Shown: positions 40,045 through 52,336, counted from the first letter of the stretch. The stretch: DNA of 64,000 nt from Methanobrevibacter gottschalkii DSM 11977 (GCF_003814835.1 NZ_RKRG01000005.1:1-64000); one strand, 5' to 3'. Translations and numbers: made by a program. Notes: generated by a model from the sequence alone, not told the origin.

Positions 40045-40110
40045 AGAAATTATTATTAAAAACTTTATTTAAATATATTTTCATTGAACAATTAATTGAA
40101 AGGTTTGCAA

Positions 40111-41866
40111 ATGAATAACGCTTTAAAATTGAAATTGAGCATGTTTTTTCTCATGATGTTTGTCATGATTTTTTATATGTTGGTATTTGGAAAAGTTAAT
40201 ATTGTAATTGGTTTAATGGTTGTTGTTGCAGCGTTATTAAATTTAGGTAATGATTTATCATACAATCCTAAATTATCCTTTATTAAAGTATTTTCTCTTT
40301 TAATGATTTTAGGATTTGCATCTTATCTTAATAATCCTATAACTGCTTTTGGTTGTATTTTAACATTTTTCATAGTATTTGGAACAACATTTACATCTTA
40401 TCATTTGTTCGGAACTCATGTTTATTTGCCATTTTTAATGATTTATTTTATGATGGTAGTCATTCCAGTACCTCTTGAAGCTTTGCCGATGAGGTTATTA
40501 TCTTTGGCAATCGGAGCTATTTTCATTGTGGGCTTAAATCTAAAGGTTAATGGTAAAAAATATTCTAAATTATCTAAATTTACAATTTCTTCACTGATTA
40601 ATGAACTTCTTGAAGCAATTGATTTGAAATTAGATGGAAAGGAAGTTTCAATGGATAGTTTTAATGTAGCTAATGGATTTTATAGGAGTATTTTTTCTAA
40701 ATTTGAATATAAATATTTCCCAAATCAAAAGCATGAATGTATCTTAAATATTCTAAAATCTTTTCAATATATCGGTTGGAGTTTATCTAATTATGAATTG
40801 TCTGTAAATGAATTAACCCATATTAAACGAATTTTAAATGATATCAAAAATTTTAAATTTTCAGAAATTGAAGAAATTACAGGTGAAACTAAAGAAATGA
40901 ATTTAATTCTTTTAAACTTAAAAATAATTGTAAACGAAGCAAGTAAAAAAAATATAGAAAAAGAGAAGAAAATTCCAAATAAATATGTTGTATTCAATGT
41001 ATTAAAACATTTAATTAAAAGACAATTTTCATTTAAATCAGCTAAATTCACTTTTGCATTTAAAATGGCTGTTGTTTTAACATTATGGGAAGTTATAACA
41101 TTAATATTTAATTTTCCATATACAAAATGGTTATATTTTGCATCAATTCCATTAATGCTTCCATATATTGATGATGTTGCACATACTGCTAAAAGTCGTA
41201 TGGGAGGAACATTAATTGGAGTTTCTGCATTTGCAGTAATCATGATTGCTTTACAGTATATTCCCATTTCTTCTTATATTGCAATGATTATTGTATTGAT
41301 AGCCTCACTATTTGGTATGGTTTTTTCACTTCAAAATAAATTGAAATTATCCTCATTCACAACATTAATGTCAGTTACAGTATCTCTGATGTATATCACA
41401 CCACCTAAGGCTATTAAAAATACTGTGGGTTATTGTTGCAATGATTGTTGTAACCTTTATTAATTATGGATTTTTGCCATTTTCTGTTGAAAAAGAGACC
41501 AAGAATAATTTAAAAACATCTTATGTGTTAAATAGATGTTTTGTAAATTTAATTAAATTAAAATGTGAGGGTAAAAATATTAACAAAACATCATTGCTTG
41601 CTGTAAGTAGTATGGTTCATGAAAATATTGAATTAACTAACAATAATAAAGAATTGTATCAAATGCAAACTAAAACAACGAATATTTCTAATTCAATTTT
41701 AAATTATATTGAAATTTATGGAATATCTTCAGAAATGAAAGTTAAAATTATTAAAGTAATCGAAAATAAAGGTAATTTTGACAATCATGAAAATATTATT
41801 CTATATTCTATAAATTATGTAGTGAATTTATTGAATGAAGAAAAAAATTTAATAGAATCTATATGA
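40111..41866 (+). pseudogene. FUSC-family membrane protein, frameshifted
   Basis: The first frame (40111-41463) codes for a FUSC-like protein with two blocks of membrane helices around a soluble region. The first block is MFFLMMFVMIFYMLVFGKVN to LSLAIGAIFIVGLNL. The second starts KMAVVLTLWEVITLIFNFPY and includes HTAKSRMGGTLIGVSAFAV, typical of aromatic-acid exporters. At about 41425, beside GTGGG, the natural continuation changes frame. WVIVAMIVVTFINYGFLPFS and the following ~140-residue cytoplasmic tail read to 41866. One base too many (or two missing) explains it. The first ATG with an AGGT-like site is 40111. Either it is a pseudogene or the sequence has an error. Confidence 0.78.
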
Positions 41867-43200: not shown

Positions 43201-43551
43201 ATGATACCTGGTATGAACAAAAGACAAATGAAACAAATGGAAAAGCAAATGAAAAAAATGGGTATGAAAATGGAGGAACTTGAAGGAGTTCGTGAAGTTG
43301 TTATTCGTTTTGATGAAAAAGAGTTAATTATTGACAATCCTAGTGTGAGTTTAATGAATGTGATGGGTCAAGAAACTTATCAAGTTGAAGGCAAAGCTCA
43401 TGAAGTAGAACTTGATTATGAAATTGAAATTCCAGAAGAAGATATTGAGATGGTAGCTAATAGTGCAGGAGTTTCTGCAAATAAAGCAAAAGAAGCACTT
43501 GAAGAATGTAGAGGTGATCTTGCAGAAGCTATCATGAAATTAAATCAATAG
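43201..43551 (+). CDS. nac: Nascent polypeptide-associated complex protein (archaeal NAC)
   Basis: Archaeal NAC is a homodimeric chaperone near the ribosomal exit tunnel. The 116 residues show a basic, Met/Lys-rich N-terminus (MNKRQMKQMEKQMKKMGMKM), the NAC beta barrel (VREVVIRFDEKELIIDNPSV) and a C-terminal UBA domain (EEDIEMVANSAGVSANKAKE). All three parts and the length are typical. The phosphoesterase gene begins five bases after its stop, so they are co-transcribed. Confidence 0.96.
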   Translation: MIPGMNKRQMKQMEKQMKKMGMKMEELEGVREVVIRFDEKELIIDNPSVSLMNVMGQETYQVEGKAHEVELDYEIEIPEEDIEMVANSAGVSANKAKEALEECRGDLAEAIMKLNQ

Positions 43552-43556
43552 ATAAA

Positions 43557-44300
43557 ATGACTCTTATTGTGCATATTTCAGATTTGCATGTTTGTGAAAA
43601 TGAATTTGATGAAGATATTTTTATGCAAGCTGTTTCTGAAATTAATAATTTAAAACCTGACATGATTATATTAACTGGGGATATAACTAATAGCGGGTAT
43701 TACTATGAGTTTCAACAAGCAACTAAATATTTGGAGATGTTTGAAGCTCCGTTATTTGCTGTTCCAGGAAACCATGATGCTCGTAATTTGGGTTATCAAA
43801 CTTTTGAAGAATTAATTGGGGAGCGTAGTTGGAAATTAACTATGGGCGGTAATTTGACTGTAATTGGTCTTGACAGCAGCTCTCCGGATGAAAATAGAGG
43901 ACACATTGGTAATCCTCAACATATGTGGTTAGAACATCAATTAGATGAATGTACAATTAATGAGAACTTTTCTATCGTAGCTTTACATCATCATGTAATT
44001 TCTATTCCTCAAACAGGACGTGAACGTAATGTTTTATCTGATGCAGGGGATGTATTAAAAACATTAACTAATCATGAAGTTGATTTGGTATTGTCAGGAC
44101 ATAAACATGTTCCCAATATATGGAAACTAAACAATACTATTGTCGTTAATGCAGGTTCTCTTTGTTCTAAAAAGCTTAGAGGTAAAATAAAGAATTCTTA
44201 TATGATATATAATGTTACAGAAGATGAAATAGAAATTTTTCTCAATAATATTAATGGGGAAAAATTTTTATTTGGAAAATACGCGAGAAATGTGTTATAA
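43557..44300 (+). CDS. Calcineurin-like metallophosphoesterase (CpdA-like)
   Basis: This 247-residue two-metal phosphoesterase contains all core motifs: HISDLHVCENEFD (residues 5-17), IILTGDITNSG, VPGNHDARN, ALHHHVISIP and LVLSGHKHVPNI. The arrangement is that of class III cyclic-nucleotide phosphodiesterases (CpdA), although related enzymes act on other phosphoesters. It follows nac by five bases and precedes the nuclease/palm gene pair by about 80 bases. A role in degrading a cyclic nucleotide made by the palm protein is speculative. Confidence 0.9.
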   Translation: MTLIVHISDLHVCENEFDEDIFMQAVSEINNLKPDMIILTGDITNSGYYYEFQQATKYLEMFEAPLFAVPGNHDARNLGYQTFEELIGERSWKLTMGGNLTVIGLDSSSPDENRGHIGNPQHMWLEHQLDECTINENFSIVALHHHVISIPQTGRERNVLSDAGDVLKTLTNHEVDLVLSGHKHVPNIWKLNNTIVVNAGSLCSKKLRGKIKNSYMIYNVTEDEIEIFLNNINGEKFLFGKYARNVL

Positions 44301-44377
44301 AGTAAATTTAAATAATGGAATGCAAAAATATATAATGTAGAATTATTTATTTTGATTAATTAGTTTTAGGTGATATT

Positions 44378-45403
44378 ATGAAAGTGGTTGTAGATGCTTC
44401 TAATGTAGCTTTTAGTGTTAAAAATGAAATGGGACAACCTCAAATGTCTAATATTCTTGCAGCTGTTAAGGCATTAGAAGAAGGTGAAGATGAATTTGTA
44501 ATAATTGCCGATGCATCACTTCGTCATGATATTGATGATAAAGAAACATTTTTGAAATTATTGGAAAGTGAGAACGTAGAAGAAGTCCCTGCAGGTAATG
44601 ATGCAGATCATTTTATTTTGGATATTGCTTCACGTGAAAAAGCAAAAGTATTGTCAAATGATAAATTTAGGGATTATGCTGCTGAATTTAGGAATATTTC
44701 TTCTATTAGGATTCCATTCATAATTGAGAATAATAGACTAACATTTGGTAAACCTAAGAAAGCTAAAAAAGATAAAAACATCCTTCAACACATATGTGAT
44801 GAAATTATAAAAGAATTGAACTTTAAAAAATGGGAAATTTACACAGGTAAAGAGGGTTTAGAAATTTCACCATTAAATATTGCTAAGCAAGCGATTATTC
44901 GCATTGATAATGAGAATAATACGGAATCCAAACTTGAAAACATCTTTTCTAAAATCCCAATGTTTAATAAAATTGTAGAGATGGTTGATGATGTTGAAAT
45001 AGCTGCACCATATGTGATTTTTGTATTGGTGCATCCTAAAGATTATAAACTTGCTGTTAAAAATGCAGGTAACATATCCGTTACTGTTGCAGATAGATTA
45101 GGCCTTGAGAAAAAACCTCTAATTGCAGTTAGAAATGATTTATTCACCAAACAAGGTAATTTTGAATTAAATATTATGTTGGCTGATGAAGTAACTGAAT
45201 ATGCTCCATATAACATTTCAGTTCGTGTATGTGATAGTGATGAAATATTTATTAAAAGAAATTCAAGGAATATTGCAAGCACAATTGCTGGAAGGCTCGG
45301 ATCATGGAAATTCCCATTTGTTTCTGTAAAACCAGATATGCTTTTAGAAAAACCTGGTGATTTTGAAATAGAACTGGAAAAAGGAGGAGGATTAGATGGT
45401 TAA
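44378..45403 (+). CDS. NYN (Zc3h12a-like) ribonuclease domain protein
   Basis: Residues 1-125 form a PIN-like NYN domain of the Zc3h12a type: MKVVVDASNVAFSVKN (Asp6), VIIADASLRHDID (Asp45), PAGNDADHFILDIASRE (Asp75/Asp77) and VLSNDKFRDYAAEF (Asp94). These acidic residues form the metal site of RNases. A lysine-rich linker (KPKKAKKDK) follows. A C-terminal region of about 200 residues of unknown fold contains two related-looking halves, each with a motif resembling 'NAGNISVTVADRLG' / 'NSRNIASTIAGRLG'. It has its own promoter region and GGTGAT ribosome site, and its 3' end overlaps the palm-domain gene by eight bases. Confidence 0.8.
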   Translation: MKVVVDASNVAFSVKNEMGQPQMSNILAAVKALEEGEDEFVIIADASLRHDIDDKETFLKLLESENVEEVPAGNDADHFILDIASREKAKVLSNDKFRDYAAEFRNISSIRIPFIIENNRLTFGKPKKAKKDKNILQHICDEIIKELNFKKWEIYTGKEGLEISPLNIAKQAIIRIDNENNTESKLENIFSKIPMFNKIVEMVDDVEIAAPYVIFVLVHPKDYKLAVKNAGNISVTVADRLGLEKKPLIAVRNDLFTKQGNFELNIMLADEVTEYAPYNISVRVCDSDEIFIKRNSRNIASTIAGRLGSWKFPFVSVKPDMLLEKPGDFEIELEKGGGLDG

Positions 45404-46598
45404 TCCATTAACTAAATCTTTAATTAAGGTAACTACTAACTTAACTCCAATTTCTGTTGGAACTAAATTTTTTCCAACAAATTCACTAGAAACAGAATAT
45501 GTTGAATTATTTAATTATACTCAAACTATTCTTTTTGAACTTGATAAAGCAGAAATAACCTCCGATTCCATTTTAGAAAACTTAATTCGGGATGTTGGTG
45601 TGGAAAACCTTCCAAAAGATTATAATTTTTATGAATTAAAACCAGCTGAAAACCGGATTGAAGAATATGCATTAGTAAGTAATATTATCATGGGCAATGA
45701 TCGTTATTTTTACATCGAACTTCAAAATCCTTCTCATTTAATTAATATTTTTGTAAAAATCATTGAAAATGAAAAAGGGGAAGTTGTAGAAAAAACTGCA
45801 ACAGAATTAGTTGCTAAAATGCTAAGTAAAAATGATGCGATTCGTGTAGCTATTGAATTAATTGGTATTGGTTTGTCTGAAGGAATTCAAGTAATTTCTG
45901 CTGTTGGAATGACTGGTGCGGCATCTATTGAAAGAGCAATACATTATACTCAAAACGTAGGCAGTTTTCCAGGTATTGCATTTACTAAGTTAGGTGGGGA
46001 ATATGCGCTTGTTTTTGATTCTCCATTTTTACTTCAAGAATCAAGGCCTGTTGACTTGGAAAATTATTTATTCATTGATTTAATCGATTCGACTAAATTC
46101 ATTGATAAAAATGGTCGTAATCAACTTGTTGATTTGATGACAGGTATTAAAAATTTCATTGAAACGGAATGTAATGGTGAGTTAGAAGGGTATCGTGAAG
46201 GTGGGGATGATTTTATTGCAAGGTTTCCATCTAAAGACTTAGCAATACGCGCTGGACTTGATGCAGCATGGTTCGCACTTGATAATGGTGCGAAAATAAG
46301 GGCAGGTGTTGGTAGAAGTAGAAGGGAAGCAGGTGAGAGAGCCCAACTTGTTGATGATTTAAAATCAACTGCACCATTGTCTTTGGTTGTATTTGAATTA
46401 GCAAATGGTTTGTATGCATATAATATTCCGTCTGAATTTACAAGAACTTTAATTAATTTAATAGAAAATGAAAAAGCAAAATTAATTGGTGTTTTTGTTT
46501 TTGTGTTTATATTTGCATTTATAATGTCCATTTTAGGGCTTGGAGTATTTAGTTTCATAGGTGTTATAATAGCATTAGTTTATGCATTTGTAGCTTAA
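45396..46598 (+). CDS. Membrane protein with a GGDD palm (nucleotide polymerase/cyclase-like) domain
   Basis: Residues about 222-310 resemble the palm domain shared by GGDEF cyclases, class III cyclases and CRISPR Cas10. FIDLIDSTKF (226-235) gives D228 and D231, GYREGGDDFIARF holds GGDD at 269-272, and IRAGVGRSR resembles the strand that follows in GGDEF enzymes. All residues needed for two-metal nucleotide chemistry are present. An N-terminal domain of about 200 residues has no family I recognise. Two membrane helices lie at 364-399 (IGVFVFVFIFAFIMSILGLG), placing the palm domain in the cytoplasm near the membrane. The gene overlaps the NYN nuclease gene by eight bases, so both are co-translated. 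The product nucleotide is unknown. Confidence 0.65.
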   Translation: MVNPLTKSLIKVTTNLTPISVGTKFFPTNSLETEYVELFNYTQTILFELDKAEITSDSILENLIRDVGVENLPKDYNFYELKPAENRIEEYALVSNIIMGNDRYFYIELQNPSHLINIFVKIIENEKGEVVEKTATELVAKMLSKNDAIRVAIELIGIGLSEGIQVISAVGMTGAASIERAIHYTQNVGSFPGIAFTKLGGEYALVFDSPFLLQESRPVDLENYLFIDLIDSTKFIDKNGRNQLVDLMTGIKNFIETECNGELEGYREGGDDFIARFPSKDLAIRAGLDAAWFALDNGAKIRAGVGRSRREAGERAQLVDDLKSTAPLSLVVFELANGLYAYNIPSEFTRTLINLIENEKAKLIGVFVFVFIFAFIMSILGLGVFSFIGVIIALVYAFVA

Positions 46599-46619: not shown

Positions 46620-46997
46620 ATGAGAAGAAAAAAAGATGATAAGAGGGTTTTATTTTCTCCAAATAGTAATCGTCCAAAGCATTCTAATAAAAGAAAATTA
46701 AATTTACCTAATTTTCAACGTCAACCTCAACGTTCACGCAAACAAAGTAAATGGGGCAATGTTACTGTATTTCTTATTATTTTAGCTTTAGTTGCATTTG
46801 TTGTTGGTGCAGGAATGGGGGTATCATTAAGTTTTGATAATGATGATGGTCCTCATTGGAAGAATGTTACTGAAGAGATGACTACTAATTTAAATGAGAC
46901 TGATAATTTTACTTATGATGAAGAAGTAGATGGTGTTGATTTTAATAGTAATGAAACATTAACTGAACTAAATGTTACTGTTAAACCATCATATTAA
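46620..46997 (+). CDS. Single-pass membrane protein with basic inside and acidic outside
   Basis: This 125-residue protein starts with a very basic, Arg/Lys/Asn-rich segment of about 45 residues. One membrane helix follows (NVTVFLIILALVAFVVGAGM, about 48-70). Then comes an acidic, Asn/Thr-rich tail of about 55 residues with several NxT/NxS sites (NVTEEM, NLNETDNFT, NETLTELNVT) that could be N-glycosylated outside. It is 21 bases after the palm-domain gene and 10 bases before argJ, so it may belong to that operon. I do not recognise it. Confidence 0.65.
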   Translation: MRRKKDDKRVLFSPNSNRPKHSNKRKLNLPNFQRQPQRSRKQSKWGNVTVFLIILALVAFVVGAGMGVSLSFDNDDGPHWKNVTEEMTTNLNETDNFTYDEEVDGVDFNSNETLTELNVTVKPSY

Positions 46998-51298: not shown

Positions 51299-52336
51299 AT
51301 GAGTAATAGATTGCTGAAAGTAAATATCCAAAAGAAACTTAAAGAATTCGACTTGGATGTTGATTTTGAATTGAAAAAAGGTTGTTTGGGTATTCTTGGT
51401 CCTTCTGGCTGTGGTAAAAGTATGACATTAAAATCTGTTGCGGGTATTGTAAATCCTGACAGTGGTGTTGTAAGTTTAATTATGGATGAGGAAACTATTT
51501 ATTATGATTCTAACAAAAAAATTAACTTAAAACCTTAAAAGAGAAATGTGGGCTATTTATTTCAGAATTATGCTTTATTCCCCAATATGACTGTTGAGGA
51601 AAATGTTGCTATTGGTTTACCTAAAGATTATGATGAAAAAATTGTATCTCAAATGATTAAACGTTTTCATTTAGAAGGATTAGAAAAAAGGTATCCTCGA
51701 CAATTATCCGGTGGTCAACAGCAAAGAGTAGCTTTAGCTCGTATTTTGGCCTATGGTCCTGATGTTATATTGTTGGATGAACCGTTTAGTGCTATGGACA
51801 CTGTCTTAAAAGAAAGATTACGTATTGAACTTATTAATTTGCTAAATGATTTTGATGGATTTTCTATTTTGGTTACCCATGATCGTGATGAAGCATTCCA
51901 GTTTTGTGATGAACTTATAATATTGGATGAAGGTAAAATTATTGCAAAAGGTGATACTCATGAAGTATTTGAGGATCCAAAGAAAGTTCAAGTTGCTAAA
52001 CTTACAGGTTGTAAAAATATTTCTAAAATTGAAGTTATTGATGATTTTCATCTTAAAGCTTTAGAGTGGGGAGTTACATTTAAGGTATCTAAAAAAATTT
52101 CATCTAATATTTCCCATATTGGGATAAGGGCGCATGATTTTCATCCTGCTGAAGAAAATGATGTTAATGTAATTGATGCTTTAAATTCATCAAAATTAGA
52201 AAGGCCTTTTGAATGGGAAATAACCTTATCAAATGGTTTGTGGTGGAAAGTTGACAAACAGATTTATGATCATGAATTTGATGTTCCAAAGTATCTAAAA
52301 GTAGATCCTAAAAATATTATTCTATTGGAAGAGTAG
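51299..52336 (+). pseudogene. modC: Molybdate/tungstate ABC transporter ATPase, interrupted by an in-frame stop
   Basis: The ATPase reads in one frame through its whole length except for TAA at codon 80 (51536-51538). The first part contains Walker A (GPSGCGKS, residues 34-41). After the stop the same frame resumes with RNVGYLFQNYALFPNMTVEE (Q-loop), YPRQLSGGQQQRVALARILA (signature), VILLDEPFSAMD (Walker B) and a C-terminal regulatory region. KRNVGYLFQ is normally preceded by Gln, so CAA to TAA is the simplest change. A GTG at 51548 could restart translation but would give a protein without Walker A. It is a nonsense allele, a sequence error, or a read-through case. Confidence 0.85.

Follow-up and report, generated by a model that had tools for sequence, protein, structure and literature searches.

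We found that the membrane protein encoded at the 3' end of a two-gene pair in Methanobrevibacter gottschalkii DSM 11977 is a tandem duplication of two palms, a feature that the first-pass annotation had overlooked, and that the pair, whose other member is an NYN ribonuclease, is part of the core genome of the class Methanobacteria and of no defence island. The palm protein falls outside the canonical class III cyclases, the GGDEF proteins, Cas10 and GTP cyclohydrolase III. We tentatively favor the explanation that the pair is a product-controlled housekeeping RNase, in which the palm enzyme would act on the NYN RNase through a product or by contact.

Organization of the locus

The pair lies in the 64,000-nucleotide stretch that we analyzed (the window), which comes from a genome of 1.88 Mb in 6 contigs. 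The relevant features are as follows.

43201..43551, + strand: archaeal NAC (nascent polypeptide-associated complex), conserved upstream neighbor (Pfam NAC, 57.3 bits)
43557..44300, + strand: calcineurin-like phosphoesterase, similar to class III cyclic-nucleotide phosphodiesterases, a neighbor and non-obligatory part (Pfam Metallophos, 75.9 bits)
44378..45403, + strand: NYN (Zc3h12a/Regnase-type PIN) ribonuclease, 341 aa (Pfam RNase_Zc3h12a, 60.2 bits; AlphaFold2 and Foldseek)
45383..45395, + strand: ribosome-binding sequence of the palm gene, aaaggaggaggattagATG, within the 3' end of the NYN gene (read from the sequence)
45396..46598, + strand: tandem-palm membrane protein (PALM), 400 aa (AlphaFold2, Foldseek, profile match, core gene)
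45657..46031, + strand: N-terminal palm, degenerate, residues 88-212 (hhalign against the C-palm; AlphaFold2 strands and helices)
46041..46445, + strand: C-terminal palm, residues 216-350, with DxxxST (D228-T233) and RxGGDD (R267-D272) (conservation; fold and profile matches)
46476..46595, + strand: two C-terminal transmembrane helices, residues 361-399 (Kyte-Doolittle and AlphaFold2)

The boundaries first proposed for the three open reading frames (43557-44300, 44378-45403 and 45396-46598) are exact, as is the 8-base overlap, at 45396-45403, between the stop of the NYN gene and the start of the palm gene. A GGAGG ribosome-binding sequence sits just 5' of the palm ATG, and the overlap of the genes together with this internal ribosome-binding site suggests coordinated translation of the two proteins.

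Between the palm gene and argJ (window 46620-46997) is a gene for a fast-evolving 125-aa single-pass membrane protein that was detectable in some relatives only. Elsewhere in the window a molybdate/tungstate-type ABC transporter ATPase (51299-51538 and 51548-52336) is broken by an in-frame TAA (51536-51538) directly 3' of the genes for its binding protein and permease, and is either a pseudogene or an assembly error. A membrane protein with several helices, which on inspection resembles FUSC/YccS, occupies two overlapping frames (40096-41463 and 41441-41866), and the split near 41430-41463 fits a frameshift.

Fold and duplication of the palm protein

The palm-type fold, originally suggested by sequence motifs, was recovered in the AlphaFold2 model of the protein (alignment of 27 relatives; pLDDT 81.7, pTM 0.72), whose top PDB matches are class III adenylyl cyclases with E-values down to 1.2e-5. 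The strand and helix order of a palm is drawn in both halves of the model, with pLDDT mostly between 80 and 92, and the profiles of the N-palm (88-212) and the C-palm (216-350) align with an hhalign probability of 96.9% (P 1.5e-10), the score of 63.3 comparing with a mean of 13.4 and a maximum of 21.7 for 100 column shuffles. Both predicted membrane helices are at the C-terminus (residues 361-379 and 383-399), forming a hydrophobic hairpin in which Kyte-Doolittle windows exceed 1.6.

Residues D228, D231 and G269-G270-D271-D272 are at the positions the first-pass annotation gave, although its assignment of all of them to metal binding held only in part. D228 and the GGDD were each retained in 87/87 sequences covering the site, whereas D231 varies (80 D, 6 N and 1 G of 87), and this incomplete conservation makes a role as metal ligand unlikely. 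S232, T233, G269 and G270 of the C-palm are also found in 87/87, and R267 is Arg in 86 sequences and Lys in one, giving an RxGGDD motif that resembles the RxGGDEF of diguanylate cyclases. The acids typical of the RRM-like palm superfamily, one where strand 1 ends and others in the hairpin joining strands 2 and 3, are present as D228, D271 and D272 (87/87), and because these are invariant the protein is probably an active NTP enzyme of the two-metal type. E137 of the N-palm never varies and E108 hardly does (85/88); since they occupy the positions of D272 and D228 of the C-palm, respectively, the N-palm is degenerate yet constrained. When the N-palm profile was searched against the PDB only designed repeat proteins were returned, and these were discarded as composition artefacts.

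Comparison with known palm enzymes

What kind of palm is it? As a single sequence, the palm protein had no match in Pfam, NCBIfam, PADLOC or PDB sequences, and none of 22 members of its family matched the Pfam models Guanylate_cyc, GGDEF or GCH_III. The best Foldseek and profile matches are to class III cyclases. Foldseek against the PDB returned AC9, Rv1900c, Ma1120 and photoactivated cyclases (E from 1.2e-5), the matches being moderate, with TMt of 0.4-0.57 over one palm, and a profile search of PDB sequences independently placed the cyclase domain of Rv1900c first (E 8.4e-4), in an alignment that pairs D228 with the Asp of strand 1 and sets GGDD at the GD hairpin. Both groups have DxxxST at strand 1 and GD in the hairpin, and in C1/C2 class III cyclases two cyclase domains make one active unit, as the tandem palms may do.

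These matches raise the possibility that the palm protein fills the gap of a 3',5'-cAMP (or cNMP) cyclase in these methanogens, with the CpdA-like phosphoesterase degrading the cNMP and the NYN protein a neighbor. In its favor, there is a report of cAMP in Methanothermobacter thermautotrophicus, the archaeal enzyme that makes it being openly described as unknown (PMC8646023), and the Pfam class III cyclase was detected in 0/60 Methanobacteriales genomes. However, the palm protein has GGDD and not the single-acid GD of the cyclases, and it lacks the class III Asn/Arg transition-state arm after strand 4: there is no N-x3-R, the strand at 301-306 being followed by two residues and then a helix at 309-321 (with R309, E314 and A316 invariant), and HMMER matches to cyclases end at about 306-314. 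Also counting against a cAMP cyclase are the absence of the phosphoesterase from some genomes and the presence of a CYTH protein in 40/40 genomes, although archaeal CYTH proteins have been argued not to be cyclases (PMC8646023). We consider this reading very unlikely.

Diguanylate cyclases of the GGDEF type carry GG[DE]EF and an RxxD I-site, whereas the palm protein has GGDD and no RxxD ahead of it. To our knowledge, conventional GGDEF domains are nearly absent from archaea. Pfam GGDEF was above its cut-off in only 2/40 genomes, at loci other than that of the palm: in one Methanobrevibacter genome (G027) a protein resembling response regulators contains a domain of the GGDEF family reading IGGDDFF (L157:1324-2313, - strand), and genome G026 has two GGDEF-family matches.

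Cas10 and mCpol have the GGDD palm in common with our protein. Like it, Cas10 holds two palms (PMC11346440), a degenerate one and a GGDD one in a single chain, and NYN RNases also occur beside Cas10. By comparison with these systems, however, the palm protein is without HD, zinc finger, D4, Cas partners, CARF or 2TM-beta effector; it is a core gene and not mobile defence; neither Cas10 nor mCpol was among the best 50 Foldseek matches listed for it; and no CRISPR, CARF or 2TM-beta partners were found among the conserved neighbors (NAC, NYN, argJ/argB and a tRNA-guanine transglycosylase-like gene). The one-palm Cas10 relative mCpol makes c-di-AMP (PMC12657230), which shows that a small palm acting alone is able to synthesize a signal. 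In the nearest experimental precedent, from Bacteroides fragilis, the NYN protein beside a Cas10 palm was assigned a role in crRNA trimming and not that of a signal-activated effector (PMC11346440), so that a palm beside an NYN gene need not mean a synthase and its effector.

The archaeal GTP cyclohydrolase III (ArfA, PF05165) also consists of two tandem palms, with GGDN in the second, whereas the palm protein has GGDD, is longer by an N-terminal segment and is anchored in the membrane. The common layout, together with core, vertically inherited status, would suit a GTP cyclohydrolase III-like nucleotide-metabolizing enzyme that performs a biosynthetic step unrelated to signaling, and there is a local match at a RAGxG...AD motif, for which the hhalign score of 26.8 slightly exceeds the shuffled maximum of 22.5. 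That match has a probability of only 13% and covers just 22 columns, however, and neither an RNase partner nor anchoring in the membrane is what this reading would lead one to expect; we regard it as quite unlikely. The narrower proposal that the palm replaces GTP cyclohydrolase III was rejected, the genuine enzyme being encoded by a separate gene in 59/60 genomes, which also weighs against the broader reading.

Among archaea, MK0296 of Methanopyrus kandleri (UniProt Q8TYK1) represents a small family of GGDEF-like proteins, which may already cover the palm family. A 2010 paper by Anantharaman and colleagues gives that family one sentence, describing it as retaining the acidic residues, without signaling domains, and predicted to be active but not to signal, and the paper names M. 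smithii, M. stadtmanae and M. thermautotrophicus in its list of abbreviations (PMC2904730); the passages found there on the family mention no tandem palm, membrane hairpin or NYN partner. A 2005 census had set MK0296 aside as truncated (PMC1183210). Our literature search found no paper on the NYN-palm pair, and a search by M. thermautotrophicus locus tags, whose numbers were guessed from the argJ/NAC neighborhood, found nothing relevant.

The NYN ribonuclease

The Zc3h12a-like assignment of the nuclease proved sound, the Pfam score of 60.2 bits standing well above the cut-off of 23, and its AlphaFold2 model matches Regnase PIN structures (Foldseek E 6e-7, TMt up to 0.68). Its catalytic residues D6, N9, D45, D77 and D95 are conserved in at least 88/90 sequences apart from gaps. 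The PIN/NYN fold and catalytic acids are thus common to this protein, Regnase-1/ZC3H12 and the CRISPR-associated NYN proteins, whereas its duplicated C-terminal domain has no recognized match. The duplication itself, noticed in the first-pass annotation, is real (hhalign score 58.7 against a maximum of 17.0 in 100 column shuffles). The repeated unit is a beta-alpha-alpha-beta-beta domain of ~60 aa, at about residues 207-268 and 273-335, which had no confident match among solved structures and in which no known ligand-sensor domain was recognized; the region 151-208 was poorly modeled by AlphaFold2.

Distribution, linkage and inheritance of the pair

We examined 150 Methanobacteriales genomes and one genome (G150) from another order of the same class. 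The palm protein was detected in 146/150, representing all 19 genera, as well as in G150, and its gene is single-copy in each genome, barring one split assembly; the NYN protein was detected in 144/150. In all 142 genomes with both genes on one contig (142/142), NYN is followed by palm, adjacent and on the same strand. Of the conditions that would have refuted the first-pass annotation, three were checked, and the predicted palm-type structure, the retained D228 and GGDD and this order-wide NYN-palm linkage all spoke for it. Four sampled Methanobacteriales genomes seemingly lack both. True loss of palm or NYN in some genomes was considered and rejected: the absences look like assembly gaps because the neighboring NAC gene is missing there too. 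The class-wide gene order is NAC-(phosphoesterase)-NYN-PALM-argJ, with NAC upstream and argJ downstream conserved across the class, argB also a conserved neighbor, and a tRNA-guanine transglycosylase-like gene often further upstream. In pairwise comparisons, identity between palm proteins tracks that of argJ (correlation 0.90), NYN (0.84) and NAC (0.80), and the mean identities of the four are similar (0.57-0.65), which indicates vertical inheritance at a housekeeping rate. A mobile or defence origin was considered and rejected: no relatives were found in plasmids, phages or viral contigs, and the best viral structural match had an E-value of 3e-3.

This neighborhood bears on the main rival to the explanation we favor, an RNA-processing complex without a diffusible signal, in which the palm would act directly on RNA, as a nucleotidyltransferase or an RNA-/NTP-binding subunit like Thg1 or the RNA-binding GGDEF domains, and would tether NYN to the membrane near nascent chains. 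Such a complex would be in keeping with neighbors that function in translation and RNA metabolism, NAC among them, and including, in the Methanothermus-like G150 and others, a protein (MFEIK...KTPTLMPVIHP) read as archaeosine tRNA-guanine transglycosylase. The work of a CRISPR NYN in RNA trimming (PMC11346440) argues for it as well, as do the statements in PMC2904730 that the palms of Thg1, GGDEF and Cas10 share one ancestor and that some GGDEF domains bind RNA. Nevertheless, no recognized RNA-binding domain was found in the palm protein, its nearest matches among solved structures and profiles are cyclases that act on small molecules, and argJ and argB are also conserved neighbors, so that the context is no more than generic housekeeping. 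On balance we find direct action on RNA possible but somewhat doubtful.

The phosphoesterase is not an obligatory partner

The phosphoesterase is indeed calcineurin-like, as first described (75.9 bits against a Pfam cut-off of 21.5), with all calcineurin-type metal-site residues invariant, although its score with the CpdA model PRK11148 is far below the cut-off (61 bits where 225 are needed). The first-pass annotation had joined it to the pair as a three-part cassette in which the palm would be the synthase, NYN the effector and the phosphoesterase the enzyme degrading the signal; read so, the locus would serve a stand-alone stress or antiviral response. All three enzymes do look catalytically intact from their residues, and the three genes are neighbors in 16/23 representative genomes. 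In the other seven, however, the pair persists while the phosphoesterase gene lies elsewhere (4/23: G011, G047 and, in pieces, G065 and G091) or is absent (3/23: G021, G024 and G030, all three of which retain NYN and palm), and the cassette is thus not supported. A response or defence function found no support either, because the pair is single-copy, is core in effectively every Methanobacteriales genome, evolves slowly like its housekeeping neighbors and occurs on no plasmid, phage or viral contig; PADLOC gave no match for the palm and weak generic ones for NYN and the phosphoesterase. We consider the three-part cassette scarcely likely at all.

Decay of the phosphoesterase gene may be under way in several lineages; G065 and G091 have it split in two, and in a Methanothermobacter-like genome it has an in-frame TAG (G001:C1:131590-132297, L105).

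Discussion

What, then, might a universal palm protein with a fixed RNase partner do? Building on the computed fold, duplication, residue conservation, universality and linkage, we favor a two-gene module with a housekeeping function in the class Methanobacteria and no antiviral cassette. The palm protein would be a membrane-anchored, probably active two-metal NTP-using enzyme in which the degenerate N-palm, fused to the catalytic GGDD C-palm, pairs with it as an internal pseudo-dimer, in an arrangement resembling that of Cas10, GTP cyclohydrolase III and the C1/C2 cyclases. Judging from its residues, enzyme activity is to be expected because D228 and GGDD are absolutely conserved, together with DxxxST and RxGGDD. 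Most likely it makes a small nucleotide product, a cyclized or ligated NTP, at the membrane. The cAMP reported in M. thermautotrophicus (PMC8646023) and the lack of a Pfam class III cyclase from the 60 genomes speak for such a product as well. The duplicated C-terminal domain of the NYN ribonuclease, whose catalytic acids are intact, would serve to bind a partner or ligand, and since the RNase partner is fixed, we infer that the palm product, or the palm protein by direct contact, acts on the RNase and sets its activity for routine RNA turnover.

A bolder version of this explanation, which we think unlikely, makes the palm protein the founder of a new class of synthases for nucleotide signals in archaea. 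The class would be internally pseudo-dimeric and universal among the Methanobacteria, and the duplicated C-terminal domain of NYN would read its product. If true, this would be the first core, non-defence RNase system in archaea to be controlled by a nucleotide signal, and the archaeal cyclic nucleotide that still lacks an explanation might come from it.

The palm protein is a universal, uncharacterized and probably active enzyme with a fixed RNase partner in the dominant methanogens of the gut and rumen. Because both proteins are of modest size, direct assay is feasible. If a product is found, archaeal nucleotide signaling would be opened to study, and if there is none, the pair would still define a core RNA-processing pair of these organisms.
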